A stretch of DNA of 20,171 nucleotides from positions 1 through 20,171 of the IMG/VR virus record IMGVR_UViG_3300031997_000694. The stretch is one strand, 5' to 3'. Position 1 is the first letter of the stretch. Every line of letters begins with the position of its first letter. The position numbers were made by a program, and so were the translations under genes. Shown in pieces: positions 2,736 through 19,476 of this stretch. The stretch comes from a virus. The notes under the pieces were generated by a model. That model saw nothing but the letters and a program-made list of their open reading frames with translations, was not told where the DNA came from and searched no databases.

Positions 2736-2741
2736 AGCCTA
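2736..2741 (-). promoter_or_regulatory. Candidate leaderless -10 element TAGGCT
   Basis: TAGGCT ends six bases before the ATG at 2729. Its TAG is also the stop of the upstream 105-aa gene. One of eight TANNNT hexamers at identical spacing on this strand. Confidence 0.6.
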
Positions 2742-3056
2742 CAGCTCGGACGCTGGGGGCTCCATCTCGACGCCGAGGCTGGCGAAAGCGTTGCGGTCTC
2801 GGCGGTCGTGGTCCCTGGCGAGGCGCGCGCCACGGTCGACCTTCCGCTCCGTGCGGTCGGCCTTCACGTCGAGATCCATGACGTACTGGGCGAGCGAGCG
2901 GCCGTTCCCGGTGTCAACGTGGGTGGCGGCGGTGCTGATGTCGACCCCGTTGGCCTTCGACTGCTTCAGTCCCATGTAGCCGATGATGCTGGCGGGGAGA
3001 GCAGCTGCCAGAATCCCTCCTGCGGCGATGAGGGCGACAACGGTGTCTTCGTGCAT
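2739..3056 (-). CDS. Single-pass membrane protein, lysis-associated candidate (105 aa)
   Basis: ATG 3056 to TAG 2739. Residues about 5-28 (TVVALIAAGGILAAALPASI) form one hydrophobic segment close to the N-terminus. The rest is soluble and charged, with a helical stretch (VMDLDVKADRTERKVDRGAR) that could form a coiled coil. Actinobacteriophages often carry similar short proteins with an N-terminal membrane anchor and a hydrophilic tail near their lysis genes (DUF2746-type proteins come to mind), but I could not confirm family membership. It lies between the giant virion protein and the holin-like gene, with nine-base gaps on both sides, which suggests a second lysis or membrane factor. TAGAAT lies six bases before the ATG and there is no clear Shine-Dalgarno. 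Confidence 0.75.
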   Translation of the reverse strand: MHEDTVVALIAAGGILAAALPASIIGYMGLKQSKANGVDISTAATHVDTGNGRSLAQYVMDLDVKADRTERKVDRGARLARDHDRRDRNAFASLGVEMEPPASEL

Positions 3057-3062
3057 GGTGCG

Positions 3063-3068
3063 ATTCTA
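3063..3068 (-). promoter_or_regulatory. Candidate leaderless -10 element TAGAAT
   Basis: TAGAAT ends six bases before the ATG at 3056. Its TAG is the stop codon of the giant gene. Confidence 0.55.
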
Positions 3069-6000
3069 TCGAACGCCTGTTCGACTTCGCTTGGTCGTGA
3101 CCTTGACCTTCTTCGGCTTGTAGCGCCTGATGCCCTTGAGGAGAGACGCGGTCGATGTGACGCCGATGCTGCGTCGAAAGTTCGAGCGGCGCACACCCTT
3201 GATCTTGGGCAGCACGAGCCGAGATGCTCTCAGAGGCGCTGTGTGGACCGTAGCGGCCCGCGGCTTGCGTTTGGCTCGACTGCCCGCCCCGAGCGCTGTC
3301 GGGTGCCCCAGGGTGGCCTGGGTGCGGGCTGAGAGGGCCTTGATCTGCGAGTCGGGCATGAGGGGCAGCCCGAGGAACTTCGCCGTGTTGTGGAGCTGGT
3401 CGGCGCCCTGCCCGGACGGGAAGACAGCCTGCGACTGGGGGAGCCCGATGCCAATGCCGGCGAGCGCCTTGAGCGGGTCGACCTTCTCGACGCGCTGCCC
3501 GAACTCTCCGATGCCAGGCTTCGCTGTGCCGGGGCGGGGAGCGTCCAGGCCAGCTCGGATCCCGATGTCGAGGAACGGGTTGATCGACTGGGCGATCCCC
3601 TCGGGGGTGACCAGCGTGCCGGCACCCATGAGCGGGTTGAAGATGCGGGTGTTGACGGCCCCGAGGAGCGGGATGTTCATGACCGTCTGGTAGCCGTGGG
3701 GGAGCACGACGCCGAACTGCTGGACCTGGAGGTCCTGGTTGAGCCGGTCGAGGTAGAAGGCGATGGCGGTCATCTGCGGGTGGTCGATGGGGAACCGGGC
3801 CCCGATCTTCATGAGGCCCTTGATCCACGGGTAGAACGGGACGACGGCCTTGACGACCTGACGCTCGAACGGAGACAGGTCGTTGTAGTCGACGAGCGCC
3901 TTGTAGACAGCGTCGAGAGCCTGCGGGGGCGGCATGTTCTTGCGGATGTTCTTGAAGTAGACCGCGGCGCGCGCGACCTCGTCGATGACCGCGTGGCTGG
4001 CGCCAAGCGACGTGGTGGTGTGGGTGAACGCACCAGTGACGCCCCGCTTGTTGAACGCCTCCTTGACGCCGGCGATGCCCTTGGTCGGGGGGAACAGGCT
4101 GCGTTCGCCGCCGGTGTCGACGAAGGTGTTGCCGTGGATGCCCTCGGGCAGCTCGGCCGCCTTGTAGCCCCTCCACGCCTTCACGAAGTCCTGCAGCCGA
4201 GCGCCATCGACGGCGGCCATGACGATGTTGCCGAAGACACGGTGGACGTACCAGCGGGGCGACAGGGTCAGCACCAGGGTCTTCCACGGGTTGGTGATCT
4301 TCGAGGCTGCAGTGAGGGTCGGGTGCGCGTAGTCCTTCGTCCAGCGGCGGAGCACACCGTCGACGGTCTTCGGGATGATGAGGTCGCCGGCCTGGATGGA
4401 GCGCTCGGCGGTGGCAGGGTCGACAGAGACGAGGCCAGCGCGCCGGGGGCCCCAGGGGACCCAGCCGTCGGGGATGACACCGTCGGGGCCGACCTCGCGT
4501 GCCCACTGCTTCTCGACCATGTCGACGACCCCGTTGGTGCGGGCCTCCCAGGTGACCTCGTTGACGGCGGCGACGAGCGACTCTATGGACCGGTACCCGG
4601 TCTTGTCGGAGAGCACGCGGGCCTTGCGGGTCCCAGCCTCGACCTCCTTGCCGAGCGGCGTGTTGGGTCGCCCGAGGCGCATGGAGCCGTAGACGAGCTG
4701 CTCGGCTTGCTTCTGCGTGAAGTTGCGGACGTGGACCGGGTCGATGCCCAGCTCCTCGGCACGCGCGATCATGGCAGTAAAGGTCTGCGGAAGGTCATCA
4801 AGGGCAGCGGCGAGGGCAGGGTTGTCCTTCCCTTCGTCGATCAGGTCCTTGGTGGCCTTCCAGAGAGGCTGCCACTGAGCTGGGACACGAGCCACCGACG
4901 GCATCTCGGCGGAGTCCATGAAGCGCTCGAGGGTGCGCTTGGCGCTGGCCTGCAGCATCGCCTGCCGCTGGGCACGGGGCAGCGTGCCGTCGATGATCGA
5001 CTGCTTCAGGGTGTCCCGCTGCCGCACGAGCTGGGCCCGCTGCTTGATGATGGTGTCCATGCGCCGCTCCGACTCGGCGAACCGCTCGGCCGCCTTGCCC
5101 GACGTGACGCCTCGGGCGTACATCTGGCGGGGCGTGGCACCAGGGACCTCGGGCGGAGTCTGCGCTTCCTTGCCGAGCATGCGCGGCTCGGGCGGAATCT
5201 CGCGTGCCTTGAAGCCGGGGGTCAGCTCGGTGGGGAGCTGCTCTGGGTTGAGGTAGGTGTCGAGCAGCTCGCGGGTCCCCTGCGGGATGTTGATGCCGGC
5301 ACGGTTGCCAGCGAACCCGTCCTTGGTGTACTGCCAGAACTGGTTGAGCACCTGGCGGAGCTGCTCGTAGATGGGGGTGAGCCAGTGGCTGCCGGGGGCG
5401 TGCCCGGATGCGAGGTAGCCGACGAAGTCGTTGGCGAACCGCTCCTCGTGCTGCCGGGTCCACTTCCCGCCCTCGATGCCGTAGGCCCGCTCGAGGCGGC
5501 TGAGGTCTTCGGGGCTCATGATCTGGCGGAGGACGTGGGCGTTCTCGTGGACGAGGGTGCTGAAGTCGGCGTCTTGGAACAGCCGCACGATCATCTTGTC
5601 GGTCTCGCCGCCGAGGATGGTGAGGCCGAGCACCTTCTCGTGGAGCGTGGAGGCGAGCACCTGGGGGAGACCGAGGCCGTACGGGTCGAGCGCGTCGATG
5701 GCGTCCCGCACCTTGGGGGTCGGGTCGGCCATGATGTCGGCGAAGTCGCGCCAGTCTTCGTCTCGGACGGCGGCGGCTTCCTCGTTGACGAGCTTGTGGG
5801 CCTCCTCGAGCGCGCCGGTCTTGTCCCCCTCGGCGAGCATCGCTTCGATGTCACGCTGCCAGGACCGGTGACTGTCGACGGCGGCCAGGTAGTCCTTGAT
5901 CTCGCTGGCGCTCTCGGTGACTTGGGTGAGGTACCGCTCGGTCTCGGGGACGAGGGCCGCAGCGTGCTCGGCGGTCTGCGCGCCGCGCACGACGGGCACC

Positions 6001-9000
6001 TGACGTTCCACGGTCGGTGGGCGTTCCTTCGCCTTCGCTTCGAGGGACGCGAGACGCTCGCGCATCGGGTCGGCGTTCAGGTCGAGGTACGCCTGCCACG
6101 GGTCGTTCTGTGGGGTCCAGCTCCCGTCACGGATCGACTCGATGAGGTCGGAGCCGTGGGCGAGGGCGATGCCGACGTTCTGCCGGCTGATCTCGCTCTT
6201 GATGTAGCCCCACAGCAGGGCCTGCACCTCGTGGGGCTTCACGTCGCGGCCCAGTTCGGCGCTCATGTCGTCGGCCATCGTGCGGACCTTCTCAGCGAAG
6301 GCGTGGTAGTTGCCGACGCGGTCCCACACATGCGTGTCGGCCTCACCGAAGCCACGACCCATCCAGCTGTCGAGGGTGACGCCCATCGACGTCTCGGGGT
6401 TGGCGAGGTTGTCATGGAAGCTGAGGATCTTGGCGAGGGCCTCGGAGCCGTGGTACTCACGCACGGCCAGCTCGTGGGCGATCTCGTCGACGGTGCCCTT
6501 GGCGCCGGCCTTGATCTGCGCCTCGGCCATCGGGATCATGTCGTCGACCATCTGCGAGGTGACGTGCTTGGCGCTGAGCCGCTTGGCGTTGCCGCCGAAC
6601 AGCTCGCCCCGGCTGCGGACGTAGTCGTTCGTCCAGCCGTCCCATCCGTCGTACGGGTGGATGGTGTGACCGCTGAGGATCTCGAACACCCCGTACTGGC
6701 TCGAGGTGTACATGTGTGTGTCCTTCGCCAGATGCTTGAACAGCCGGGTGCCGGCGCGCAGCGACGGGGCCTGGGCGCTGCCTCGCTTCATCGGGGTCTG
6801 GTCGAACTCGTCGATCATCTCCTTCAGCGCGTCGATGTGGGTGCCGCTGCCGGCGAGGAATCGCTTGATGTTGGCGATGCCGGTGAGGGTGTTGCCGAGG
6901 TTGGTGGCTGGCGAGGCGCTGACGCTGGTGATGGCGAGCAGCTCGTAGGCTAGGTCGGCGGCGTCCATCTGGTGGCCGTTGAGGAGCGTGACGGTGCGGC
7001 CGCGTCCCCACTTCTCGATGGCGGCGTGGGACCGGTAGTACCAGGGGAGCATCTTGTCGACGTCGTAGCCGGCGTTGACAATCTCGTGGTACAGGGGCAT
7101 GCCAGGCTCGAGCTGCATGACGTTCTGCGCCAGGACGCCGGTGGTCGGCAGGGACTTCGGCTGCTTGACGCGCGCCTGGTACTCGAAGCGCTTGAAGTAG
7201 CTGTCGGGGCTAATGTCGCCGTGGGTCTTCGCCCACTGCACGGCGATGGAGTCCTGCAGCGCCATGATCTGGTCAATCTGTGGGGCCGTCAGGTTCTTGA
7301 GCTTGCCGCTCTCGACGGCGGCGTAGAGCTGCTGGGCGCGCCGGTCACGGAAGGTGTGGTTCTTGATGAAGGCACCGCTGATGTCGGGGCGGCCGACGTA
7401 CTCGGTGCTGATGAAGGCGTCCTCAGGGCGCTTGGCGCCGAGGTCGTAGACCGAGTCCTGGGCGCGCGCGTTGCCGAGACGCACGGCGTCGGAGCGGGAC
7501 CGGACGATCTCGGACGGCTCGATGTAGACCTTGCCGGCGTCGTCGACCCAGCCGCCGAGCACGACGTTGGCGTGGCCGTCGAACATGGCCTGGTAGTGCT
7601 TGGCGATCCCGTCGAGCAGCTCGGGGGTGACGGCTGCCTTCGGGATGCCCTCGACGCCAGGGAGGATGCTGACGACGTAGCGGCCGTGCTCGTTCGGTGC
7701 GACGACGAGCGAGTCGGTGTGAGGGTCCCAGGAGAAGCCGGGGTTCTCGGGGTCGTTGAGCATGGCGATGAGTGCCGCGCGCCGCTCGGCCCAGCTGGCG
7801 ACAGCCTTCTCGCCGGCGCCCCAAATGGCAGGGAGCCCGGAGCGGCTGGCGTCGAAGGTGCCCTTGATGGCTTCCTGCGCGTCTTGGATCCGGCCGAGGC
7901 GCTCGCCGAGCTTGCCGAGGGTGTCGTTGTCAGAGGCAACCTTGCCTTCAGCCTTCATGCGCTCACGCATCACGGCCGGCTCCATGCGAAGCGCGCGGCC
8001 CGACTCGCTCTGTGCCTTGCGGAACATGCGCTGCTCGGCCTTGGTCAGAATCGGCTGGGTGTCGTCGAGAGCGAGCGGGAGGCCCTTGTTGCCGAGGCGG
8101 GACTCTTGGATCGTGCGGAAAGCGTCGATGCGCTGCCGCTTCCACAGGTCAGTGGCGTAGGCGATGTCGGCCTCGAAGGCGGGGTTGTCCCGCAGACCGG
8201 GCGGGAGGACTTCCTGCCGTACCCCTCGAGCCACGGCGGTCTCGTCACTCATGCCGAGCGCCTGCTGCCACTCGTGGATCCCGGTGAGGCGTGCGGTGAT
8301 CTCGTCGCCGGCGATGCGGGTCGCCTTGACGACGTCGCCGTCGACGAGTGGCAGGATGTGGAGCGCCGCAGCGTCGAGGGTCGCCCGGACGATGGGGCTG
8401 TTGTTGGCGGCACGCGCGGCGGTCTGCGCGGCGCGCTCGGTGGTCCGCAGCTCGGTACGGACCTCGTGGGCCAGGAGACGCTCCTCGACGCCGGCCAGGA
8501 GGCGGGTGTGAAGTGGGAGCGCCTCCTCGCCGGGGAGCTGCTTGCCGAACACGAACGTGCCGACCCTGCCTCGAGGCTTGGAGCCTTCGGCGGCGATGGC
8601 TTCGGCGCGTTGGCGCATGATCTCGCGGCCCTGCTCGAAGGCATCCTTCGGGATCATCGGGGATCCGCCGGCTTCGGGATTGCGGACAGCGGCTTCGGCG
8701 TTGGCCTTGGTCTCGTCGGCGATCAGCTCACGTTCGCCGACGGCGACCGGGTCAGCGGTGCTGGTGTAGGTCGTGTGCCCGTAGAGCGGGTCGGCCATGC
8801 GCTCGGGCATGAGGCCGAGCTTCTGTGGCGCGAAGGTCCCTTCGACGGGGGCAGCTGCTGTGGGCGCCTGGTAGGCGACATCAGCCCATTCGTTGGGGAG
8901 CACAGCTGAGCCGGAGGTTGGGGTCGGCTGGTTAGTCACTCGGCCGTATTCGGCAAGCGTGTCGGGGTGACTGGCCTGCCTTGCGACACTCTCCGGCACG

Positions 9001-10622
9001 GTGACTTGCTTCACGACACCGTCGGCGCCTGCGTAGTTGCGGGCGTAGCTTTCCTCAGTGTGGAACAGCGGGTTCGTGGCGGCGCCCCCTGCAGGCTCAC
9101 CTCGGTACAGGGTGACCGGAGCCTCTGGTTCGGGTGGCCGACTAGCTAGGAGAGACTCGTTCGCTGCTGCAGGCGGCGGCGCCGTGGCTTCCGCATGGGC
9201 AGCAGCGTCGGCGCTTGCCTGCTCGAGCGGACTAAGGCCAGTAGTAGCTGCCCGTTGAGCATCGATCTCACCAGCCGCCGCTGCCGCCTCGGCATCGATC
9301 TTCGAGGTGATGAGAGCGGCATTCTGCCCGCGGGTCTCTGTGGCGAGGGCCCGGCGGGCCTCGGGGCTGAACATGCGTGCATGGGCCTGGTAGGCAATCT
9401 CCTCGCCGTGGCGGCTGAAGTCGTTGAGGTTCTCCCGGTGGCCGAAGTAGTCGTGGATAGCCCGGAACCGGTTGTTCTCCTCGGGGGTCCAGAGTGGGTG
9501 CTCCTCACCGGGACCGGTGTTGTTGATCTTCATACGGCCGTTCTGCTCGATGTCGTTGAACATCTCCTGGGCAGTGGCGTACGGCTGGGCGTGGTTGTTG
9601 TCGGCGACGACTTCGACACGAATACCTAGCCCACCCTGGTCGCGTGGCCGGGTCAGGAAATCGTACTGAGCGTCCCGTTCGTTGGCGAGTGCCTGGTAGG
9701 AAGCCTGGGTGGCTGGGTCGTTGGGGGTGGCGAAGTCGGGGTGGTTGTAGGTGTCGGCCATCGTCTGGCGCGCAGCTGGGCTCAGGTCGGGGAGGCTGGT
9801 GTCGACCGGGGTCGGCTGCTCGAGGCCGTGCTGCGTCCCGTACTGGTCGTGGTACGCCTGCACCTCGGGGTGGACCTGAGCTGCCTGCCGCACCGGGGTG
9901 TCCTCGACGCCGGCCAGGATGTCCCGACCGTAGGAGCCGCCGGGGCCCTGCGCTTCGGCGATGGACGCTGCCTCTGCGGTCGGCTTGGTGACGACGCTGG
10001 CGGCGGCGAGCTTGGTCGCTTCGCCGGCCTGGGCGTAGGGGCGGATGATCTTGGTGTAGGCGCTCTTGAACGGGTGGGCGACGACGTGGGCGCGCGCGGC
10101 GCTGGCCCGAGCCGTGGCAGCTCGAGCAGCGGCTGCCTCAGCGCCGACGGTGTCCCCGGCAGCCGCAGCCGTGGCGGCAGCCTCGTCGGCTGCTCGGGCA
10201 CTGCTCATGAACGCAGACTCGCCGCCGCTGGCGATGATGGAGGCGTTGAGGGTGTCCTCGACGAGTGCAGGGAGGATCCCGCCCCGGCGGTTCCATGCGG
10301 GCTGGACGTACTGGTCTCCGCCGCCGAGCGTGGCGAGCGGCTTGTGGGCGAGCCCGCCGGTGACGGTGTCGGCGGTGGAGAGGAAGCTGCGTCCGACCCC
10401 TTCGGCGAAGTTCTGCGTGGTGTCGCCGGGGTTGGTGACCATGCCGACGCCGAGCTGCCCGATGCCCTGGACGAACTTGCCGGGCATCTCGAGGAGGTTG
10501 CCTAGACCGAGGCCACCCCAGCCGCCCCCGTTGTCAGCGCTCGGGTACGACGAACCGCCCCCGGCTTGCGCCTGGCGCTTGCGACGTTGAGCTGCGATCT
10601 CCCAAGGGGGGGTGTACGCCAT
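3066..10622 (-). CDS. Giant multidomain virion/polyvalent protein with zincin motif (2518 aa)
   Basis: ATG 10622 to TAG 3066. Order of regions: a Gly-rich, mildly hydrophobic N-terminus (about 20-110); an Ala-rich helical stretch (about 145-180); HDYFGH at 390-395 with ETRGQN at 429-434; VTLYRGE around Y506, suggestive of an ADP-ribosyltransferase fold; a GGWVDD block at W1025; a helical domain from about W1194 (PWYY) through TLDSW (D1418, W1420) to LLWGY (W1471); HENAH at 1692-1696, a zincin HExxH metalloprotease motif with a candidate third ligand at E1726; a probable coiled coil about 1840-1905; SPRWYVHR (W2124) and YNDLSPFER (Y2246) with PFYPW at 2262-2266; and a basic Lys/Arg tail over the last 70 residues. 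Such proteins in other phages are packaged and ejected with the genome, and some protect it or modify the host. It follows the adaptor and internal-protein genes, the usual place of ejection proteins. The motif readings are by eye; no RNA polymerase or lysozyme signature was seen. Confidence 0.88.
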   Translation of the reverse strand: MAYTPPWEIAAQRRKRQAQAGGGSSYPSADNGGGWGGLGLGNLLEMPGKFVQGIGQLGVGMVTNPGDTTQNFAEGVGRSFLSTADTVTGGLAHKPLATLGGGDQYVQPAWNRRGGILPALVEDTLNASIIASGGESAFMSSARAADEAAATAAAAGDTVGAEAAAARAATARASAARAHVVAHPFKSAYTKIIRPYAQAGEATKLAAASVVTKPTAEAASIAEAQGPGGSYGRDILAGVEDTPVRQAAQVHPEVQAYHDQYGTQHGLEQPTPVDTSLPDLSPAARQTMADTYNHPDFATPNDPATQASYQALANERDAQYDFLTRPRDQGGLGIRVEVVADNNHAQPYATAQEMFNDIEQNGRMKINNTGPGEEHPLWTPEENNRFRAIHDYFGHRENLNDFSRHGEEIAYQAHARMFSPEARRALATETRGQNAALITSKIDAEAAAAAGEIDAQRAATTGLSPLEQASADAAAHAEATAPPPAAANESLLASRPPEPEAPVTLYRGEPAGGAATNPLFHTEESYARNYAGADGVVKQVTVPESVARQASHPDTLAEYGRVTNQPTPTSGSAVLPNEWADVAYQAPTAAAPVEGTFAPQKLGLMPERMADPLYGHTTYTSTADPVAVGERELIADETKANAEAAVRNPEAGGSPMIPKDAFEQGREIMRQRAEAIAAEGSKPRGRVGTFVFGKQLPGEEALPLHTRLLAGVEERLLAHEVRTELRTTERAAQTAARAANNSPIVRATLDAAALHILPLVDGDVVKATRIAGDEITARLTGIHEWQQALGMSDETAVARGVRQEVLPPGLRDNPAFEADIAYATDLWKRQRIDAFRTIQESRLGNKGLPLALDDTQPILTKAEQRMFRKAQSESGRALRMEPAVMRERMKAEGKVASDNDTLGKLGERLGRIQDAQEAIKGTFDASRSGLPAIWGAGEKAVASWAERRAALIAMLNDPENPGFSWDPHTDSLVVAPNEHGRYVVSILPGVEGIPKAAVTPELLDGIAKHYQAMFDGHANVVLGGWVDDAGKVYIEPSEIVRSRSDAVRLGNARAQDSVYDLGAKRPEDAFISTEYVGRPDISGAFIKNHTFRDRRAQQLYAAVESGKLKNLTAPQIDQIMALQDSIAVQWAKTHGDISPDSYFKRFEYQARVKQPKSLPTTGVLAQNVMQLEPGMPLYHEIVNAGYDVDKMLPWYYRSHAAIEKWGRGRTVTLLNGHQMDAADLAYELLAITSVSASPATNLGNTLTGIANIKRFLAGSGTHIDALKEMIDEFDQTPMKRGSAQAPSLRAGTRLFKHLAKDTHMYTSSQYGVFEILSGHTIHPYDGWDGWTNDYVRSRGELFGGNAKRLSAKHVTSQMVDDMIPMAEAQIKAGAKGTVDEIAHELAVREYHGSEALAKILSFHDNLANPETSMGVTLDSWMGRGFGEADTHVWDRVGNYHAFAEKVRTMADDMSAELGRDVKPHEVQALLWGYIKSEISRQNVGIALAHGSDLIESIRDGSWTPQNDPWQAYLDLNADPMRERLASLEAKAKERPPTVERQVPVVRGAQTAEHAAALVPETERYLTQVTESASEIKDYLAAVDSHRSWQRDIEAMLAEGDKTGALEEAHKLVNEEAAAVRDEDWRDFADIMADPTPKVRDAIDALDPYGLGLPQVLASTLHEKVLGLTILGGETDKMIVRLFQDADFSTLVHENAHVLRQIMSPEDLSRLERAYGIEGGKWTRQHEERFANDFVGYLASGHAPGSHWLTPIYEQLRQVLNQFWQYTKDGFAGNRAGINIPQGTRELLDTYLNPEQLPTELTPGFKAREIPPEPRMLGKEAQTPPEVPGATPRQMYARGVTSGKAAERFAESERRMDTIIKQRAQLVRQRDTLKQSIIDGTLPRAQRQAMLQASAKRTLERFMDSAEMPSVARVPAQWQPLWKATKDLIDEGKDNPALAAALDDLPQTFTAMIARAEELGIDPVHVRNFTQKQAEQLVYGSMRLGRPNTPLGKEVEAGTRKARVLSDKTGYRSIESLVAAVNEVTWEARTNGVVDMVEKQWAREVGPDGVIPDGWVPWGPRRAGLVSVDPATAERSIQAGDLIIPKTVDGVLRRWTKDYAHPTLTAASKITNPWKTLVLTLSPRWYVHRVFGNIVMAAVDGARLQDFVKAWRGYKAAELPEGIHGNTFVDTGGERSLFPPTKGIAGVKEAFNKRGVTGAFTHTTTSLGASHAVIDEVARAAVYFKNIRKNMPPPQALDAVYKALVDYNDLSPFERQVVKAVVPFYPWIKGLMKIGARFPIDHPQMTAIAFYLDRLNQDLQVQQFGVVLPHGYQTVMNIPLLGAVNTRIFNPLMGAGTLVTPEGIAQSINPFLDIGIRAGLDAPRPGTAKPGIGEFGQRVEKVDPLKALAGIGIGLPQSQAVFPSGQGADQLHNTAKFLGLPLMPDSQIKALSARTQATLGHPTALGAGSRAKRKPRAATVHTAPLRASRLVLPKIKGVRRSNFRRSIGVTSTASLLKGIRRYKPKKVKVTTKRSRTGVR
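3069..3084. repeat. Inverted repeat TCGAAC-N4-GTTCGA
   Basis: Perfect six-base arms separated by GCCT, covering the last sense codons of the giant gene and lying directly upstream of TAGAAT. It could be an operator overlapping the promoter of the membrane protein gene or a weak transcript-end hairpin; there is no T-run. Confidence 0.4.
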
Positions 10623-10628
10623 ACGTCC

Positions 10629-10634
10629 AGGTTA
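10629..10634 (-). promoter_or_regulatory. Candidate leaderless -10 element TAACCT
   Basis: TAACCT ends six bases before the ATG of the giant gene at 10622. Its TAA is the stop codon of the 388-aa gene. Confidence 0.55.
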
Positions 10635-11798: not shown

Positions 11799-12139
11799 CA
11801 GAAGCCACCACCCAGGGTGGTCCCGAGTGTCGCCATGATCCGGTTGTACTGGAGATCCGCCAGGTGGCGGTTCAGGAGACGGTCGACGTCGCTGTTCTGG
11901 TAGTTGAAGTCCTCACGGGCCTGGTCGGCTCGGACGCCAACCTGCCCGCCCCGGACGGTGCCGCGCGCGCTCGCGGCGTTGGTGATGTTGGTGAGGCCCC
12001 GGCCGTACATGACACCGAGACGGTTCTTGGTCAGCCCGGAGTCTTCACGGGACTGGGCCTCGTTCTGCTGGAGCTGCTGGAGCTGGATCGGGAGAGGCGA
12101 TCCGCCCGGCGCGCTGTAGAAGTCTTGCAGGGAGGCCAT
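11798..12139 (-). CDS. Small helical protein, virion-associated candidate (113 aa)
   Basis: ATG 12139 to TGA 11798. An extended N-terminus (FYSAPGGSPLPIQ) is followed by a Gln/Glu-rich helix (LQQLQQNEAQSRED). Next come a Gly/Arg segment (SARGTVRGGQVGVRADQ) and a last helix (DVDRLLNRHLADLQYN), and the protein ends in TLGGGF. The ARG..RGG pattern followed by a helix recurs loosely in the next protein (SRMRGGLGQARLGALADI), so the two may be related in structure. It is coupled to that gene by a TGATG overlap. Together they probably encode internal or tail-core proteins. No specific family was recognised. Confidence 0.78.
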   Translation of the reverse strand: MASLQDFYSAPGGSPLPIQLQQLQQNEAQSREDSGLTKNRLGVMYGRGLTNITNAASARGTVRGGQVGVRADQAREDFNYQNSDVDRLLNRHLADLQYNRIMATLGTTLGGGF

Positions 12140-12145
12140 GCAGTC

Positions 12146-12151
12146 AGTCTA
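12146..12151 (-). promoter_or_regulatory. Candidate leaderless -10 element TAGACT
   Basis: TAGACT ends six bases before ATG 12139. Its TAG is the stop of the adaptor candidate. No Shine-Dalgarno is visible upstream of this ATG. Confidence 0.6.
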
Positions 12152-12808
12152 GACCGAGTACCACTGATCGACGATCTGCGGGTAGGTGTCCTCCTGGCCC
12201 ACCATCAGGGCCGCCTGCATCTGCGTGAGGAGCCCCTGGGCGACCTGGAGGTGGCCACCGGCGACGTCGGCGTTGTCGTCGTCGACGTAGGCGAGGAACA
12301 GCGCGTACTCGACCAGGATCTGATGGTACTCAGCGGGGAACGCCGGCGTGGTGACAGTGCCGCCGCCGCCGGCGAGGCTGAGCGTGCTCGGCGTGGCGAG
12401 GTAGTCGATGATGATGGAGGTCGTGGCCGTGGGGGTCGGGTACACCTGGAGGGTGTTGGCGTAGATCCGGTAGAAGCCCGGCTGGCCAACGGTGGTGACG
12501 AAGTCGCCGAACCGGGCGCGCGGCACGTTGTTGCCCTTGAGGGGCCCCATGAGCACCTTGTCCGTGTCGTTCCAGACGACGAGGACACGCTGCGCGTCGA
12601 CGGGGAGCGCCACCGAGGTGGCTGCGGCGCCGATGGAAAGGGTGGCGGTGGCCTGCTTGTGGGCCCACTCGGAGCTGCCCATCTGGTTGTGGACCCAGGA
12701 GTAGGCGTCGTTCAGGAGGTTGACCCACTCGGCTTGGCTGACGATGCTGTTCGCCGTGTCGTGGAAGCGCGCAGCGCAGCGAACAGAGAGAGCCGTGACC
12801 GTTGCCAT
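12149..12808 (-). CDS. Head-to-tail adaptor / tubular protein A-like candidate (219 aa)
   Basis: ATG 12808 to TAG 12149. N-terminal helices (EWVNLLNDAYSWVHNQM) are followed by a beta-rich middle (ATATLSIGAAATSVALPVDA, LQVYPTPTATTSIIIDYLA), then a C-terminal helical region with FPAEYHQILVEYALFLAY at about 157-174 followed by DDDNADV. A 'P-x-x-x-H-x-x-L-x-x-Y-A' helix after a beta sandwich is typical of the dodecameric adaptors that sit below the portal in short-tailed phages (T7 gp11 and similar proteins). Size and location next to the hub candidate agree. The assignment rests on pattern memory and context rather than an alignment. The gap to the upstream gene is 16 bases and holds TAGGCT. Confidence 0.72.
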   Translation of the reverse strand: MATVTALSVRCAARFHDTANSIVSQAEWVNLLNDAYSWVHNQMGSSEWAHKQATATLSIGAAATSVALPVDAQRVLVVWNDTDKVLMGPLKGNNVPRARFGDFVTTVGQPGFYRIYANTLQVYPTPTATTSIIIDYLATPSTLSLAGGGGTVTTPAFPAEYHQILVEYALFLAYVDDDNADVAGGHLQVAQGLLTQMQAALMVGQEDTYPQIVDQWYSV

Positions 12809-12814
12809 GCAGCC

Positions 12815-12820
12815 AGCCTA
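12815..12820 (-). promoter_or_regulatory. Candidate leaderless -10 element TAGGCT
   Basis: TAGGCT ends six bases before ATG 12808. Here TAG is not the upstream stop (that is TGA at 12827-12825), so the hexamer cannot be explained by a stop codon. Confidence 0.65.
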
Positions 12821-12824
12821 CCGG

Positions 12825-14303
12825 TCAGACGAGGAAGTGGCCGGCCGAGGTGCCGATGCGGACAACCTCGATATCGGGGGCCGAGACGGCGCCGTTGCTG
12901 GCTCCGACGACCTGCACGTCCAGCTCGTGGCCGTACTCGCTGAACAGGAAGCTGAGGTGCTGGAGGGACCCCGACGGGGCGATGGTGACCGCTCGAGCTG
13001 TGCCGTTGACGGTGACGGTGATCGTGGAGGTCGCGGCGTTGTAGGCGCGCGCGTAGACCTGCACCTCTCGAATGCGGATCTGCCGGCCCGATGGGTCACG
13101 CAGCGGGGCGCTCTTGTAGGTGCCTGAGACGGCCGGCGTGTCCTCGTTGGCCCGGTAGACGTACAGACCGAAGCCGGGGCCGCCGGTTGCTGCCAGGAGG
13201 ATCCGCCCGTTGCCGTCCTGGGCGTTGTGCCAGTGGTCGGCGGCGGCGATGAGGTTGGAGAGCCGGAACCAGGAGTGTGTCCGCAGGTCGAAGACGTGGC
13301 CGTGGGGGGCGAACAGAAAGAAGTTCTGGTAGGCGACGTTGCCGGCGCCAACGTCGCCGTTGGCATCGGCGCCGCTGACGTCTTGCCGCCAGGTGGAGGC
13401 GGCGAGCTGGGCGCTGATGTCGGTGAAGTTCTGGCCGTCGCCGGTGAGGTAGATCCCTTGCCCGCCGCCGATGAAGCCGATCCCTTCGGTGGTGAAGACA
13501 CCGTTCTGGCCGGCGCCGGGGGTCCGCGCGTCGCTCATGCTGCGGACGACGGGGTCGGTGATGTCGCCTTGGAGCATGACCCACGGGGCGGTGCGGCACC
13601 CGATGAACAGGTCGCTCGGGGCGAACGGGACGATGGAGCAAATCTGGTTGCCGGCCTGGGAGGCGTTGATGGGCAGGTTGTTCGGGGCGCCGAACGTCTG
13701 TGTCTGCGAGTCGGTCCACCAGAGGACGTTGGCGATGGAGGCGAAGATCCGGTCGTCCTGCACGGCGACGGTGGTGACGCCGCCGGTCTTGAGGCGGGCG
13801 ACGGCGCCGGTGGAGTAGGTGATCGACCAGACACCGTCGTCGCTGCTGGTCTGGAACAGGTTGTAGATGTAGAACCGGGCCCCAGTGCTGTCGGTGAAGG
13901 TGTCGCAGATGATGCGGTTGGGGGTGGCGGCGACGGCGGCGTGGGTCTTGATGAGGACCCAGCTCGGTGCGGCGACGGTGCCGTTGTCCCAGCGGTAGAC
14001 CTTCACCTGATTGGTGGCGGTGTCGAACACGAACACGAGCTGGTCGAAGGTGTCGCCGACGGCCCCGGAGCGGAACACGACTGGGCTGAAGCGGAAGACG
14101 CCGCAGACGACCCCGGTGGAGACGATGCCCGTGGTGCTGAAGCTCGTCCCTGCGGGGGCCGCAACGAGGCCACCCTCGACGCCGGGCATGTAGTCGGTGA
14201 GGACCTGCGCGCCGGTGGCGGGCATCTGGAGGTGGTTGGCCGTGACGAGGCCGGGGCTGAAGTCAGTGACCTCGACCCAGTCGAGCGCCTTGTTACCGGG
14301 CAT
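12825..14303 (-). CDS. Beta-rich tail hub / nozzle candidate (492 aa)
   Basis: ATG 14303 to TGA 12825, overlapping the preceding gene by 11 bases. Almost the whole protein is short beta strands rich in aromatic residues, with repeated units such as VLWWTDSQTQTFGAPNNLP, PSDLFIGCRTAPWVMLQGD and HGHVFDLRTHSWFRLSNLI. These have the look of blades of a beta-propeller. It opens with DFSPGLVTANHLQMPATGAQ and YMPGVEGGL, a start often seen in podovirus tail proteins. The length is close to P22 gp10 (about 470 residues), a propeller-bearing tail hub; T7 gp12 is a larger nozzle of similar style. Its place between the capsid gene and the adaptor fits a tail tube or nozzle component. Assignment is by context and secondary-structure appearance. 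Confidence 0.7.
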   Translation of the reverse strand: MPGNKALDWVEVTDFSPGLVTANHLQMPATGAQVLTDYMPGVEGGLVAAPAGTSFSTTGIVSTGVVCGVFRFSPVVFRSGAVGDTFDQLVFVFDTATNQVKVYRWDNGTVAAPSWVLIKTHAAVAATPNRIICDTFTDSTGARFYIYNLFQTSSDDGVWSITYSTGAVARLKTGGVTTVAVQDDRIFASIANVLWWTDSQTQTFGAPNNLPINASQAGNQICSIVPFAPSDLFIGCRTAPWVMLQGDITDPVVRSMSDARTPGAGQNGVFTTEGIGFIGGGQGIYLTGDGQNFTDISAQLAASTWRQDVSGADANGDVGAGNVAYQNFFLFAPHGHVFDLRTHSWFRLSNLIAAADHWHNAQDGNGRILLAATGGPGFGLYVYRANEDTPAVSGTYKSAPLRDPSGRQIRIREVQVYARAYNAATSTITVTVNGTARAVTIAPSGSLQHLSFLFSEYGHELDVQVVGASNGAVSAPDIEVVRIGTSAGHFLV

Positions 14304-14769
14304 CGGGGCGCTTGCCTTCGTTCAGGAAGAACTTGGTCTTCGACTCGTGGGGGTTGTGGTGCTCGCGGAGACCCTTGAGGTGCTCCATCATCGGGAACAT
14401 GCGTTCGACGTAGAGGTCGGCGTTGGTCTGTTCGATGGCGGCGTTGTTGGCGTCCATGCGCTTCTCGGCGGAGACCCAGGCGGGGGAGTCCATCCGCATG
14501 AGGACGAGGTCGGGGAGGATGCGGTCGAACTCGTCGAGCCGGCAGTGGTAGATCATCTCGAAGCGCCCGTCCTCCATGTTGCGCCACACCTCGTAGCGCC
14601 GCCCGAGGATCTCGGTGCGGATAGGGTGCTTGACGACGCGAAGCGCCAGGGAGAGCCGGTCGTCGCCCGGCCAGTCTGCGCCGTTGCCGTTGCGGAGCTG
14701 GCGTTGCAGCTCCTGCGCACCGGAGTGCAGCCAGCCGATGGTGGGGTCGTTGACGAGCGGCGAGGGCAT
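14293..14769 (-). CDS. Hypothetical structural-block protein (158 aa)
   Basis: I start this gene at ATG 14769, which has TACACT six bases upstream. An in-frame TTG at 14799 would put the start inside a strong hairpin and is less likely. The protein begins MPSPLVNDPTIGWLHSG and has a mixed middle (ILGRRYEVWRNMEDGRFEMIYHCRLDEFD, split by charged turns). It then runs into a charged helical region and ends HHNPHESKTKFFLNEGKRPDAR. No family is recognised. It sits between the capsid gene and the tail hub candidate and overlaps the latter by 11 bases, so a head-completion or tail-assembly role is plausible but not shown. Confidence 0.78.
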   Translation of the reverse strand: MPSPLVNDPTIGWLHSGAQELQRQLRNGNGADWPGDDRLSLALRVVKHPIRTEILGRRYEVWRNMEDGRFEMIYHCRLDEFDRILPDLVLMRMDSPAWVSAEKRMDANNAAIEQTNADLYVERMFPMMEHLKGLREHHNPHESKTKFFLNEGKRPDAR

Positions 14770-14775
14770 GAGGCC

Positions 14776-14781
14776 AGTGTA
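14776..14781 (-). promoter_or_regulatory. Candidate leaderless -10 element TACACT
   Basis: TACACT ends six bases before ATG 14769 and just after the hairpin at 14786-14812. It is not part of a stop codon. It would restart transcription after the capsid-gene terminator. Confidence 0.6.
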
Positions 14782-14785
14782 CGAC

Positions 14786-14812
14786 GAAGGCCCCGGCAAT
14801 GCCGGGGCCCCC
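14786..14812 (-). terminator. Strong GC hairpin after the major capsid gene
   Basis: The minus-strand RNA has a nine-base perfect stem GGCCCCGGC-ATT-GCCGGGGCC, extendable to 12 pairs with two G-U pairs, about 20 bases after the capsid stop at 14832. There is no U-run (TTCGTCGT follows), as is common for GC-rich hosts. It may terminate or attenuate transcripts leaving the capsid gene, or protect their 3' ends. Confidence 0.7.
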
Positions 14813-14831
14813 GTTGAGTGTGGATGTCCGA

Positions 14832-16064
14832 CTAGAAGGTCGGAGTCGAGACGCGCACGAAGACGTGGCTGTTGCGGTTCGTGACGTTGAGGTTCTGGTA
14901 CGCCTTGAAGCGTGCCTCGACCGCGTCGCTGTTGTCGAGCGCCTTGTAGAGCACTCGGCCGTCGTCGTCGTCCCAGGTGAAGTCGAGGCCGACGAAGCGG
15001 CTGATCTCGCTCTTGGTGATGCCGAAGATGTAGGAGTCCGGGTTGAACCGGTCCTTCACCAGCGTGCCGACGGTGAGCTTGACGCCTTCCCAGCCGGCGG
15101 GGAGCTTCTCGGTGGAGACGTCGTACCGCTTGCGGGCCTGCAGATCCTGGGCGAGCTTGGTCACCTGGGAGTGCTCGGCGAGCCAGAGGTCGGGGGTGGA
15201 TCCATCACCCTCGGTCTGGACGATCTCCTTCGAGCGCTCGAGGAGCACCTCGGAGATCGGGGTCGACGTGGTTCCGTTGGTCTTCGCTGCCCACTGTGGC
15301 TCGGTGGCCGGGTCGAGGTTGGCGTAGACCTGGGTGTCGTGGATGAGGTGGCGGAGACCGTTCATCTCGCCACCGGCTGCTGTCGCTGCCTGGAAGTTCC
15401 CCTGGCGTGCGATGTAGTCACCCGTGGTGGCACCGGCGACTGCCGGGGCGAAGGTGACGACCTTCGTGGTCAGGTTGTTGGCGGTGACGATGGTCGTGCC
15501 GCGCGAGACGCCGGTCGACCCGTTGATGATGTCGATGGCCTCGTTCACGAAGACGGCCCGCAGCTCGGCACGGTCGGCGGAGCCGAACGTCTGCGTGGTC
15601 GTGGTGCCCGCCGTGCTGGCGGTACCGGTGAGCGACCCGAGGTACAGCGTGGACGAGATCGACACGGCCGCGTTGTAGCTCTGGCGGGAGCAGTCGTTCT
15701 TGAGGTCCTTCTCGGCGCCCTTCAGCTCGTACTCGAGCGCGCGGGTGAACGATCCGCTGTCGTTCTTGGTGAGGGCCTGCGCCGGTCCCGACACCTTGAT
15801 GGTGTGGTACAGGTACGCGAGGTTGTCGCGCACTTGCTGGAAGCGCTGCCGGTCGGCCGTGGGGAGCGCAGCCAGCTCGCCGCGTGCTCCGGTCGAGGTC
15901 GACCGTCCAGTGTGGACGCTCCAGACCGCCTGGCGGCCTTGGATGTCCTCCTCGTTGGTGCTGATCTCGGACCAGACCGGGTTGGCGCTGTTGACCGACT
16001 CACGGAGGCCGGGTCCGTAGTCGTCCTTGAGGGCTGCGTCGAAGTTGGTGAGGGACTGGGGCAT
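14832..16064 (-). CDS. Major capsid protein, HK97-fold type (410 aa)
   Basis: ATG 16064 to TAG 14832. The sequence opens MPQSLTNFDAALKDDYGPGL. It follows the usual opening of phage coat proteins of this size: an N-terminal arm, then VWSVHTGRSTSTGARGE and a long helix (LEYELKGAEKDLKNDCSRQS), then a Thr/Ala/Ser-rich beta region (LTGTASTAGTTTTQTFGSAD). The C-terminal half includes DLWLAEHSQVTKLAQDLQ, and the protein ends VFVRVSTPTF. It directly follows the scaffold and portal, the fixed position of the coat gene. It would form the icosahedral shell around the scaffold. No separate protease gene was seen. TATTGT is six bases before the ATG, and a strong hairpin follows the stop, as expected for the most abundant late product. 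Confidence 0.88.
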   Translation of the reverse strand: MPQSLTNFDAALKDDYGPGLRESVNSANPVWSEISTNEEDIQGRQAVWSVHTGRSTSTGARGELAALPTADRQRFQQVRDNLAYLYHTIKVSGPAQALTKNDSGSFTRALEYELKGAEKDLKNDCSRQSYNAAVSISSTLYLGSLTGTASTAGTTTTQTFGSADRAELRAVFVNEAIDIINGSTGVSRGTTIVTANNLTTKVVTFAPAVAGATTGDYIARQGNFQAATAAGGEMNGLRHLIHDTQVYANLDPATEPQWAAKTNGTTSTPISEVLLERSKEIVQTEGDGSTPDLWLAEHSQVTKLAQDLQARKRYDVSTEKLPAGWEGVKLTVGTLVKDRFNPDSYIFGITKSEISRFVGLDFTWDDDDGRVLYKALDNSDAVEARFKAYQNLNVTNRNSHVFVRVSTPTF

Positions 16065-16070
16065 GCCCCC

Positions 16071-16076
16071 ACAATA
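16071..16076 (-). promoter_or_regulatory. Candidate leaderless -10 element TATTGT
   Basis: TATTGT ends six bases before the capsid ATG at 16064. Neither base triplet here is a stop codon of the upstream gene. The six bases between are GGGGGC, so a weak Shine-Dalgarno reading is also possible. Confidence 0.6.
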
Positions 16077-16100
16077 TCTCCGAGGAATAAACGGGGGGGT

Positions 16101-16970
16101 CTAGCGGTTCGCCCGCTCCCGTGCCCGGCGTGCCTCGATGACTTGGGTGAGGGTGCGCTTCTCGGTGTTCTGCTCCTCAGCGCCGGCGCCAGCGTTCTCG
16201 CCGAGCGTCTTCGGGGACTGGTCCCGCTGGGCCCGCTTCGTCGTCAGGTACTTCTGGACGCGGGCCTCGTTGGCCTTGTTCCAGTCGTCGTAGCCCTTGC
16301 GGACAGCAGTCTCGACCTGCTCGGCCGTCGGGATGTCCACGTTCGCCGGCAGGTACTTCTCGCCGTGAATCATGATCTCGGACTTCTCGACCTCGTCGGC
16401 GATGGCCAGGGTGGCGAATGTGGTGGCGAGCGCGTTGGTGGCTGCGCCGCGTGCCACCTCGATCTGCGCCTCCTGGGAGGCGGTGGCGAGCTGCTCCTGC
16501 TGCGCCTTGAGCGCGGCCTTCAGGTCGGCCTTGGTGAGCACCTCGTCGTCGTCGGGATCGATCTCGTCGGCGGGGTCCTCGGAACCAGCGGCGAACAGCG
16601 CCTCCATCTCCTTCGCACCGAGGCCGAGCGCCTGGCCGGTCTGGTAGAACATCGAGATGACGCCCTGCTCGGTCTGCAGGTTGGACAGCAGCTCGGCGGC
16701 GGTCTTGACGTCCTCGACAGGCAGCTCACCGATGGCGTCGGCGTACTCCTTCGCACGGGTGCGGTAGTCCGCAGCCTGCGAGCGGAGCCCCTCGACGTAG
16801 GGGCGGTCGAACTGCTCGAGCGCCTCGTCCAGCTCGGGCGGCTCGGCCCAAGGGTCGGGAGCGTCGGAGGCTGCACCCTCGGGTGCGATGGCCTCGAGGC
16901 CGATGTCTTCGGATCCGTCGGGACCCTCCTGGGGCGCGTCGACGGCGGCGGCGGTGTCTTCTGCGGGCAT
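16101..16970 (-). CDS. Capsid scaffold protein (289 aa)
   Basis: ATG 16970 to TAG 16101. Very acidic N-terminal third (PAEDTAAAVDAPQEGPDGSED, then WAEPPELDEALEQFD), a long central helix (YRTRAKEYADAIGELPVEDV), an acidic patch (EDPADEIDPDDDE), then a Gln/Ala coiled-coil stretch (KAALKAQQEQLATASQEAQ). A basic C-terminus follows, ending EARRARERANR. This layout, acidic helical body with a basic capsid-binding tail, is typical of internal scaffolding proteins, and the gene lies between portal and coat as in P22 and T7. It would direct procapsid assembly and leave before or during DNA filling. Unlike its neighbours it has a good Shine-Dalgarno, GGAGGT nine bases before the ATG, and a 76-base upstream gap. 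Confidence 0.87.
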   Translation of the reverse strand: MPAEDTAAAVDAPQEGPDGSEDIGLEAIAPEGAASDAPDPWAEPPELDEALEQFDRPYVEGLRSQAADYRTRAKEYADAIGELPVEDVKTAAELLSNLQTEQGVISMFYQTGQALGLGAKEMEALFAAGSEDPADEIDPDDDEVLTKADLKAALKAQQEQLATASQEAQIEVARGAATNALATTFATLAIADEVEKSEIMIHGEKYLPANVDIPTAEQVETAVRKGYDDWNKANEARVQKYLTTKRAQRDQSPKTLGENAGAGAEEQNTEKRTLTQVIEARRARERANR

Positions 16971-16979
16971 GGTTCTGTG

Positions 16980-16985
16980 ACCTCC
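16980..16985 (-). promoter_or_regulatory. Shine-Dalgarno GGAGGT of the scaffold gene
   Basis: GGAGGT nine bases upstream of ATG 16970. It is the clearest ribosome-binding site on this strand, and this gene lacks the TANNNT element at -12 that most of its neighbours have. Confidence 0.75.
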
Positions 16986-17021
16986 GGGGTCAGTCAGGTG
17001 CTCGGGATGTACTACGAAAGT

Positions 17022-17027
17022 AGCCTA
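17022..17027 (-). promoter_or_regulatory. Candidate -10 element TAGGCT of a leadered scaffold transcript
   Basis: TAGGCT occurs in the portal-scaffold gap, about 50 bases before the scaffold ATG. A start about seven bases downstream would give a leader of roughly 45 bases containing the Shine-Dalgarno. The same hexamer lies before the genes at 2729, 12808 and 19188. No clear -35 box was seen. Confidence 0.45.
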
Positions 17028-17046
17028 CTGCACTGGTTCTGAAGTA

Positions 17047-19188
17047 CTACCTGCCCATCGACGCAGCTTGGCTGTCAGTCGATGCGCCGGGGACCTTGCC
17101 AGGCTGTCCAGGGCCGCCGATGCCGGCGACCTTGTTGGCGCTGGGCGTGCCAGCGAGGGGGCTCGCCGCCTGACCTGATGCGACGTCGAGCGGGTTGTTC
17201 GGCTGCCCGGTGGCGGGGTTGACGTACATCGGGGCCCCGCCGGCCGGCTGGGTGCCTTGCGGGCCGGGGGGCTGTGCAAGGTCCGGGCGGCCAGCGATGG
17301 GCGGCAGCGAGCCAGGGTCGGCCTGGTTGGTGCCGGGCACGCCGGGGCCAGCAAGCTGCTGGAGAACGAGGCTCGCGTGCATGTCGGAGTGCGCGTCGAC
17401 GCACGCCTTGATGTGCGGGGGCAGGCTGTCGTACTCCTGGGACTTCCGGTAGTCGTTGTGCTCAGTCATGTGGACCTCGTGGTTGTCCCACCCGTGGACC
17501 TGGCACTGGACCCCGACGCGCAGCCGGCTGTTCTCGCGCTGCGCCTGCTTCGAGTCGAGGTTCATGTGCTCCATCAGGAACTCGCCGCCAGGCAGGTCGA
17601 GGAGCTTGAACAGGTCCTTCGGCTCCTTGATGAGCCCGAGCGGGGCGAGCTGCATGGCGAGCTGCGTGCGGGCCGAGCGGGAGCGGGGCAGCGTCGACCC
17701 AGCCTCGATGTGGACGTCCATGACGGTGGCGATGTCGGCGGCGGAGAACCGCTGGGCCTCGAGGTCGCCGTCTTCGCTCCAGGTGCGGATGATGCGGTCC
17801 TCGGTCCAGTACTGCTTGATGAGCATGAGCATATGCCACCCGACGTTCTGGACGAACTGGGAGAGCAGCTTGGCGCTGATGGCGAGCTTGGTGTCGTCGG
17901 CTTCCTGCAGGGCGAGGATGGCAGCGGCGGGCATGTTGGAGCTGCCGGCGCCACCTTGGGTGGCGTCGTTCTGCCCGGAGCGTTCGCCCATCTCGTTGTC
18001 GGAGCGGGTCATGCCCTGCTCGTGTTGGGTCATCCACCCGGAGTCGGGGATGTCCCACTTCGGAGCGCCGTTGACGTTGGCGTACTGGATGATCTCGGCG
18101 CGGCTGGTGATGCGGCTCGCGTCGATGGATCCGATGGGGGCCATCAGCTTCGGCATGATGGTGCGGCGGAGCTGGGCCTCACGGGAGCGCGCGTCGTTGT
18201 AGTCGGTCTGCATCGGGATGAGGTCGTCGACCCAGGTGCGTCCCTGGGCGTCGCCGAAGCCGGGGAGCAGGTAGCACGGGACGAACGGGAGCTTGCCGTG
18301 GTCGTACGGGAAGGGCATGGGACCCTCGAGGATCGTCTTGCCGCACCACGTCACGACCATGCCCTTCGGCGCGGCGCGCCGGCCGGGCTTCATCCAGAAC
18401 TGGTGGACCTTCACGAAGTCGCCCTTGCTGTTGTCCTTGTCGTGGGCGACGCCGCTGGCGTTGGACAGATCGTTGACTTCGTCGAGGATGGTGCGGCCGC
18501 TCTCGGCGCCGTCGGGCATCTCGCCCCAGCGCTCCCACACACCCTCCTTGGTCATGGTGACGGTGCGGGAGCACCAGCCGACGGCGTCCCAGTCGGTGGC
18601 CGACGGGTCGGCACCCATCTCGTAGGCGGGGACCTTCTCAATGACGATCTCGCCCTGCTTCAGCTCGCCGCTGGGGTCGAGGTCGAGGGACGGGCCGGCG
18701 TCGGGGTCCCAGGCCACATGGGCGTAGGACCAGCCGAGCGTGACTGGCCAGAACATGAAGCTGGTGAGGAAGAAGCCCCACTTCACCCGGTCCATCTCGT
18801 GGGTGAGCATCCGAGTGCCGACCTTGGCGGCCGCGACGTCGTTGTCGTCGTCCGATGCGGGACGGCACTCGGGGATGGGGTTCTCCTTCGTGAGCTTCGC
18901 CACGGCACGTTCGACGATGGAACCCATCTTGTTGATCGTGAGACGCACGGGCGCGTTGGGGTCGTCCGGGTTGGTCTTGGGGCGAGCCCACTGCTTCCGG
19001 TTCTCGTCCCAAATGACCCACTGGTGGCCGAGCATGTACGCCATGTTCATCTTGAGGCGCAGCTCGGGCAGCTTCTTCCGGCCGTCGGAGACCTTGCGGT
19101 CGAGCCAAGCGACCAGCTCGACAGGATCCTTCGGCGGGATGAACGGGTTGCCGCCCTTGGGGGACGGGTCAGTGATGTTGTCGGCCAC
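17047..19188 (-). CDS. Portal protein, P22-like type (713 aa)
   Basis: GTG start at 19188, stop TAG at 17047. The N-terminal part has VELVAWLDRKVSDGRK and AYMLGHQWVIWDE. It is followed by VRLTINKMGSIVERAVAKLT at about 81-100 and NPIPECRPAS, the 'N-x-x-x-x-x-V-x-x-x-x-x-x-x-x-x-x-P-x-x-x-x-x-P' pattern near the start of podovirus portals. VPAYEMGADPSATDW and SYAHVAWDP fit the wing region. A long helical stretch follows, and the last 100 residues are low-complexity Pro/Gly/Gln (PGPQGTQPAGGAP). Portals form the dodecameric ring at the packaging vertex. Size matches P22 gp1 (about 725 residues). It sits between terminase-block genes and scaffold. The GTG start is supported by TAGGCT six bases upstream. 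Confidence 0.9.
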   Translation of the reverse strand: MADNITDPSPKGGNPFIPPKDPVELVAWLDRKVSDGRKKLPELRLKMNMAYMLGHQWVIWDENRKQWARPKTNPDDPNAPVRLTINKMGSIVERAVAKLTKENPIPECRPASDDDNDVAAAKVGTRMLTHEMDRVKWGFFLTSFMFWPVTLGWSYAHVAWDPDAGPSLDLDPSGELKQGEIVIEKVPAYEMGADPSATDWDAVGWCSRTVTMTKEGVWERWGEMPDGAESGRTILDEVNDLSNASGVAHDKDNSKGDFVKVHQFWMKPGRRAAPKGMVVTWCGKTILEGPMPFPYDHGKLPFVPCYLLPGFGDAQGRTWVDDLIPMQTDYNDARSREAQLRRTIMPKLMAPIGSIDASRITSRAEIIQYANVNGAPKWDIPDSGWMTQHEQGMTRSDNEMGERSGQNDATQGGAGSSNMPAAAILALQEADDTKLAISAKLLSQFVQNVGWHMLMLIKQYWTEDRIIRTWSEDGDLEAQRFSAADIATVMDVHIEAGSTLPRSRSARTQLAMQLAPLGLIKEPKDLFKLLDLPGGEFLMEHMNLDSKQAQRENSRLRVGVQCQVHGWDNHEVHMTEHNDYRKSQEYDSLPPHIKACVDAHSDMHASLVLQQLAGPGVPGTNQADPGSLPPIAGRPDLAQPPGPQGTQPAGGAPMYVNPATGQPNNPLDVASGQAASPLAGTPSANKVAGIGGPGQPGKVPGASTDSQAASMGR

Positions 19189-19194
19189 GGTCCC

Positions 19195-19200
19195 AGCCTA
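19195..19200 (-). promoter_or_regulatory. Candidate leaderless -10 element TAGGCT
   Basis: TAGGCT ends six bases before the GTG of the portal gene. Its TAG is also the stop of the upstream membrane protein gene. Confidence 0.6.
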
Positions 19201-19476
19201 CGGGATCGGCGGTGACTCAGCCTCGAACATCCCCGTGGGGTCGACCAGCACCGCCACCCCATCGTTGCTCTCGGGGTGGAGATCGTCCTCGTTCCACGGC
19301 TCGACGAACCGCTTGACGGCAGCGAAGTGCTCGTAGTCCCGGCTGCTGAGACGGTCGACCAGCTCGAGGCACCGCTGGCGTTCGGAAGCGAGCGCGGCCC
19401 GCAGGATCTGGACCTGCCAGATCAGGATGCCGATGACGGGGAGGGCGAAGGCGAAGCCAGCCAGCAGCTCATACAT
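19198..19476 (-). CDS. Small single-pass membrane protein (92 aa)
   Basis: I start this gene at ATG 19476, which overlaps the end of the zinc-knuckle gene by eight bases. A longer in-frame extension upstream reads as low-quality sequence and is rejected. Residues about 4-23 (LLAGFAFALPVIGILIWQVQ) form one hydrophobic helix at the N-terminus. A charged helix (AALASERQRCLELVDRLSS) follows, then an acidic, Pro-rich tail ending ESPPIP. The anchor-plus-helix layout resembles spanin-like or other small phage membrane proteins, but the position between terminase and portal genes is unusual for lysis genes. Function unknown. Confidence 0.72.
   Translation of the reverse strand: MYELLAGFAFALPVIGILIWQVQILRAALASERQRCLELVDRLSSRDYEHFAAVKRFVEPWNEDDLHPESNDGVAVLVDPTGMFEAESPPIP

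Follow-up and report, generated by a model that had tools for sequence, protein, structure and literature searches.

Probable leaderless promoters, some of them sharing stop codons, in the late genes of an uncultured phage

Many late genes of an uncultured phage carry the hexamer TANNNT at one fixed distance from the start codon. These hexamers are very probably the -10 boxes of individual late-gene promoters, read by the host sigma-A polymerase and giving leaderless mRNAs. They occur in the complete IMG/VR record IMGVR_UViG_3300031997_000694, which is itself a 20,171-bp fragment and is referred to as the window. In the reading that we favour, the housekeeping RNA polymerase (sigma-A) of an actinobacterial host would recognise the TANNNT box of each boxed gene. 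Transcription would begin at the start codon or one base off. Hence, the mRNAs would be leaderless, with no need of a Shine-Dalgarno (SD) sequence, and leaderless initiation would translate the boxed genes. Dense packing would often be accommodated by letting the TAG or TAA that ends the upstream gene form the first half of the box (TAG-NNT-N6-ATG). The remaining late genes would mostly be coupled by overlap to the preceding gene or be SD-led.

We define the gap as the number of bases between the end of the hexamer and the start codon; at gap 6, the first T lies 12 bases before the start. Genes were called with a home-made caller that uses codon usage only, was trained on the capsid and portal genes, and is blind to the motif. 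The caller returned 13 starts on the minus strand, which is the late strand of the window. TANNNT was found at gap 6 in 8 of these; all other gaps from 0 to 30 were without it. Dinucleotide shuffles of the same 13 upstream regions had a mean of 0.07 at gap 6 and a maximum of 3 at any gap in 5000 trials. The initial annotation had named eight hexamers and argued that their fixed placement exceeds chance. All eight are present, each ending exactly six bases before its start, and the comparison of 8 with 0.07 bears the argument out. The motif-blind caller arrived at these eight starts too, down to the start codon. These include the major capsid and giant genes, with TATTGT and TAACCT at gap 6, as the annotation had indicated.

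All features of the late block described here are on the minus strand and are given from high to low coordinates. An SD-led gene (19469-19882; SD AGGAG) is overlapped by a gene encoding a small membrane-like protein (19198-19476). The TAG stop codon of the latter is part of the TAGGCT box (19195-19200) of the portal gene (17047-19188), which encodes a P22-like protein and starts with GTG at 19188. The gene at the scaffold position (16101-16970) is SD-led, with GGAGG at 16981-16985. It has a TAGGCT box at 17022-17027, 51 bases from its start at 16970, and thus provides a leadered control. The major capsid gene (14832-16064; phrog_14242, E 2.5e-48) has the TATTGT box at 16071-16076. In the interval between the capsid gene and the next box lies a strong G+C-rich hairpin (GGGGGCCCCGGCATTGCCGGGGCC; approximate limits 14785-14816; minimum free energy -30.4 kcal/mol, z -4.4). 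This is a candidate terminator, at which transcripts of the capsid gene may stop shortly ahead of the next promoter. Directly after it, the TACACT box (14776-14781) precedes a gene of unknown function that is conserved in relatives (14293-14769).

The gene at 12825-14303 overlaps the gene upstream and has no box. Its TGA stop codon is at 12825, outside the TAGGCT box (12815-12820) of the SU10-type adaptor gene (12149-12808; PF24175, E 3.4e-18), which contains no stop codon. The TAG of the adaptor gene falls in the TAGACT box (12146-12151) of a small gene (11798-12139). A gene without a box (10632-11798) has a one-base overlap with this small gene, and its TAA opens the TAACCT box (10629-10634) of the giant virion-block gene (3066-10622). 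The giant protein, of 2518 aa, has no Pfam match; in PHROGs its one match is to phrog_3170 (unknown), over residues 302-439. Part of the 3066-10622 region also matches a separate, opposite-strand gene at 36767-37051 of relative G003. The giant gene ends in a TAG that belongs to the TAGAAT box (3063-3068) of a small gene (2739-3056). The TAG of that gene (2739-2741) lies in turn in the TAGGCT box (2736-2741) of the small gene at 2568-2729. The box is missing from five of the 13 late genes. Those starting at 16970 and 19882 are SD-led, and those starting at 11798, 14303 and 19476 overlap the gene upstream. Hence, the 13 starts sort into leaderless-type, SD-led and coupled. The initial annotation described a structural block of individually promoted genes. 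That description suits many of the genes, but only about half to two thirds of late genes are boxed.

Because the record is a fragment, the offset test for the rest of the genome was run on relatives instead. Searches with the capsid and portal proteins identified a clade of uncultured phages, the capsids of which are 43-61% identical. Among 236 deduplicated genes from 27 loci, the window included, TANNNT was counted 5 times at gap 5, 56 times at gap 6 and 14 times at gap 7; chance would give 0.87 per offset. With the window removed, 48 of 223 genes had TANNNT at gap 6. Hence, the offset count with shuffle comparison that the initial annotation had proposed gave the expected peak in related phages. 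Each of the 12 closer clade members has [CT]ANNNT before the capsid gene, at gap 6 or 7, although the flanking DNA differs. CATACT stands in place of TANNNT in some relatives. The clade consensus is TAGNCT, then a G-rich stretch closing in C, then ATG or GTG. Within the box, TA and the final T are constrained, C at position 5 is less strict, and little else is conserved. The trait is not universal: in G004, which belongs to a related lineage at a greater distance, boxes are limited to four, all at gap 5, and the rest of the genes mostly have an SD sequence or overlap. This is perhaps an intermediate or reverted state. In three G004 loci (L066-L068), TANNNT, mostly as GTAGCCT, lies five bases before the four starts.

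The initial annotation had overlooked that 5 of the 8 window boxes, those before starts 2729, 3056, 10622, 12139 and 19188, open with the TAG or TAA stop codon of the upstream gene. The TA of these boxes is thus partly given, but the exact 9-nt spacing from stop to start and the T at position 6 are not. Since the overlap might trivialise the observation, it was tested across the related loci. A stop-to-start distance of 9 was found in 27 cases, whereas distances of 8 and 10 were found in 1 and 4. Stops at distance 9 were TAG or TAA in 23 of 27 cases, compared with 91 of 204 elsewhere (Fisher 6e-5; this and the P values below are nominal, because the relatives are not independent and the caller is home-made). 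TGA is the commonest stop elsewhere, at about half of the total, yet accounts for 4 of the 27. T occupied box position 6 in 21 of the 23 TAG or TAA cases, against 31% at the same place in other genes. No 9-nt intergenic spike was seen in host-phylum DNA or in the other phages tested. These sequence patterns are most naturally read as a box held at a fixed position, into which the stop codon has been fitted.

The same overlap might be explained by translational coupling. Ribosomes would halt at TAG or TAA and restart nine bases on, with TANNNT as a by-product. An upstream stop codon does lie inside five of the eight window boxes, and inside 21 of the 56 gap-6 boxes of the clade with the window included (37%). 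However, the other 35 of 56 contain no stop codon of any kind. Coupling also predicts neither the scarcity of TGA nor the prevalence of T at position 6, and the 9-nt spike is confined to this clade among the DNA compared. We consider this explanation very improbable, and reject coupling as the cause of the spacing on stop-codon identity and the T at position 6.

Alternatively, the hexamer could belong to an element that is specific to the phage, is associated with starts and is recognised by a phage protein, instead of acting as a -10 box. A precedent is found in cluster K mycobacteriophages, where the start-associated sequence (SAS) is a 13-bp asymmetric sequence, GGGATAGGAGCCC (SAS/ESAS; PMC3203893). 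Like the boxes described here, SAS and ESAS are repeated motifs directly before many actinophage start codons, and the bases following the hexamer are G-rich and close in C. However, apart from TA, C and T, the columns before gap-6 boxed starts show few constraints, as in a -10 box, and no 13-bp asymmetric consensus like GGGATAGGAGCCC emerges. In addition, the position is identical to that of host leaderless promoters. The scaffold-position gene is also informative. In several members, a like hexamer is located approximately 25-50 nt upstream of this gene, together with an SD sequence (L002, L006, L012, L016 and L032, besides the window). A hexamer that has moved upstream, and has been joined by an SD sequence, behaves like a promoter rather than a signal for the start site. 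A start-associated element is, if anything, slightly less credible than coupling. Chance, or the picking of start codons in the initial annotation, can be set aside as having next to no probability: TAG and TAA stops often supply TA in dense genomes, but the motif-blind caller found the same eight starts, the shuffles never came near the count, and the repetition of the peak in relatives excludes this explanation.

A second fact favours a promoter: boxed genes are poor in SD sequences. In the clade, an SD-like sequence was found before 4 of 75 boxed genes, compared with 33 of 104 genes that have neither a box nor an overlap (Fisher 1e-5). We also read three near-complete large relatives in full. 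Their synteny with the window was confirmed by tblastn, and the limits of the structural block were set by hand from synteny and strand. With these limits, boxes at gaps 5-7 precede 42 of 88 structural-block genes (48%) but 6 of 79 genes elsewhere (5e-9). Conversely, SD sequences precede 13 of 88 structural-block genes and 38 of 79 elsewhere (4e-6). The SD-rich block of one relative has PHROGs matches to DNA polymerase, a Sak4-like annealing protein and an exonuclease. Boxes are therefore concentrated in what is probably the later gene class, as judged from gene content and not from timing. As the replication genes are mostly SD-led, leaderless initiation would mark the late class. The initial annotation interpreted the hexamers as -10 boxes of leaderless genes. 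This interpretation is consistent with their position, their conservation in relatives, the depletion of SD sequences and the concentration in the structural block. It also fits the scaffold hexamer with its leader and SD sequence, and the WhiB genes of relatives described below. Separately, locus L061 (G003 31667-37165, plus strand) consists of small genes, nearly all with a very similar SD sequence of the GAGAGGAG type. This SD block is in strong contrast to the leaderless late block.

We then considered which polymerase might read the boxes. WhiB is encoded by 5 of 5 large relatives and, in our control set, WhiB matched only Corynebacterium. This points indirectly to hosts among the Actinomycetota. 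The isolated distant cousins of the clade infect Arthrobacter, Microbacterium and Cellulosimicrobium. A portal-alignment search of genome contigs found no relative. Searches for sigma-70 domains (Sigma70_r2 and r4) found none in the window or in four relatives. Hence, the host sigma-A polymerase is the likely reader. There was no match to RNA_pol (PF00940), though the controls gave none either. No phage sigma factor or late activator was identified in the window fragment or the relatives.

No extended -10 element (TGN) was evident before boxed starts of the clade, and matches resembling TTGACA gave no peak at spacers of 16-19, so that no clear -35 element was found. Of the primary starts of M. 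tuberculosis, 73% show TANNNT, with no conserved -35 element (Cortes et al. 2013, PMC3898074); a missing -35 is thus normal in the host phylum. Matches resembling TTGACA did give a weak peak at spacers of 21-23, mainly due to TTGAGC before capsid boxes, with too few cases to support a claim. At L008, L012, L015 and L031, TGAGC or TTGAGC is located about 21-22 bp before the capsid box. The weak TTGAGC upstream of some capsid boxes hints at an unusual -35 element, an activator site or an additional factor. A more elaborate and rather doubtful proposal is that this clade of actinophages has made leaderless initiation its late-gene class. A phage factor, for example the WhiB-like protein of the relatives, would steer host RNA polymerase to TANNNT boxes without a -35 element, and the late block would have evolved to let stop codons serve as promoters as well.

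Leaderless genes as such are nothing unusual in Actinomycetota. The established hallmark of a leaderless gene is a TANNNT whose first T stands about 12 bp ahead of the start (Zheng et al. 2011, PMC3160421). In Actinomycetota and Deinococcota, TA-led genes match the phage boxes in the placement of TANNNT, in having no SD sequence and in having no clear -35. Mycobacteriales and related loci served as a positive control. In 16 loci, one per genus, the gap-6 peak was present and involved about 7% of genes. The density in the phages is higher: boxes precede 62% of the late genes of the window and, with gaps 5-7 counted, 48% of the structural-block genes of three relatives. Boxes containing a stop codon numbered 0 of 21 in the one-per-genus set and 5 of 72 over all 80 loci.

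The second positive control was Thermus phage phiYS40, which has leaderless middle and late mRNAs (PMC3594737). Its first 40 kb contain 7 and 3 boxes at gaps 6 and 7. As proposed for the clade, host-type promoters are placed directly at start codons in later gene classes. However, phiYS40 boxes often have a TTGAC-like -35 about 17 bp upstream, and none in the first 40 kb has an upstream stop at the 9-nt distance. The host phylum also differs. The initial annotation considered a structural operon of individually promoted leaderless genes unusual for a phage, but leaderless late mRNAs as such were already known from phiYS40.

Comparison with other phages gave few further examples. A megablast search of the window against a phage collection found no match. 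Matches in the collection to the capsid and portal proteins were actinophages and two metagenomic podoviruses. Arthrobacter phage Jasmine, Cellulosimicrobium phage DS1 and Microbacterium phage Shocker have distant homologues of the capsid and portal, with 24-27% identity. Unlike the window, these phages are largely SD-led, and TANNNT was at gap 6 in 0 of 44, 1 of 48 and 4 of 62 genes, respectively. The four gap-6 boxes of Shocker (L053) are above background, and most have another TAG-containing stretch just upstream. TANNNT was not found at gap 6 in P23-45, phiC31, phiBT1, TM4, GTE2, BFK20, R4 or the two metagenomic podoviruses, parts of genomes being counted for several of the comparison phages.

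Phage late genes are usually regarded as long operons, with one or few promoters and SD-led genes inside. Two features appear to be new: a densely packed actinophage late block that would provide about half of its genes or more with their own leaderless-type promoters, and the apparent fusion of stop codons with -10 boxes. Our search, mostly of freely available papers, found no report of either in actinophages. Despite their end-to-end packing, many late genes appear to form leaderless units of their own. Such phages would provide a compact natural test of leaderless versus SD initiation across gene classes. They would also allow a test of the idea, put forward for phiYS40, that a phage biases the ribosome in favour of leaderless mRNAs. 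In practice, the boxes offer a rule for fixing start codons in uncultured actinophages.

Rfam and tRNA scans of the window found nothing. On the plus strand, positions 1-1224 contain at least three related small ORFs in tandem, several of which have CCTGGGGGTGAGTCGTGA at their end. Within this sequence, an SD-like GGGGGTGA overlaps both the stop region and the start that follows. This is a compact fusion of stop and start signals of a different type, on the strand opposite the late block. A gene for an SNF2-type DNA helicase (1228-2571, plus strand; Pfam SNF2-rel_dom 5.6e-29, phrog_62) is convergent with the late block. Relatives have homologous helicases near one end of the late block.
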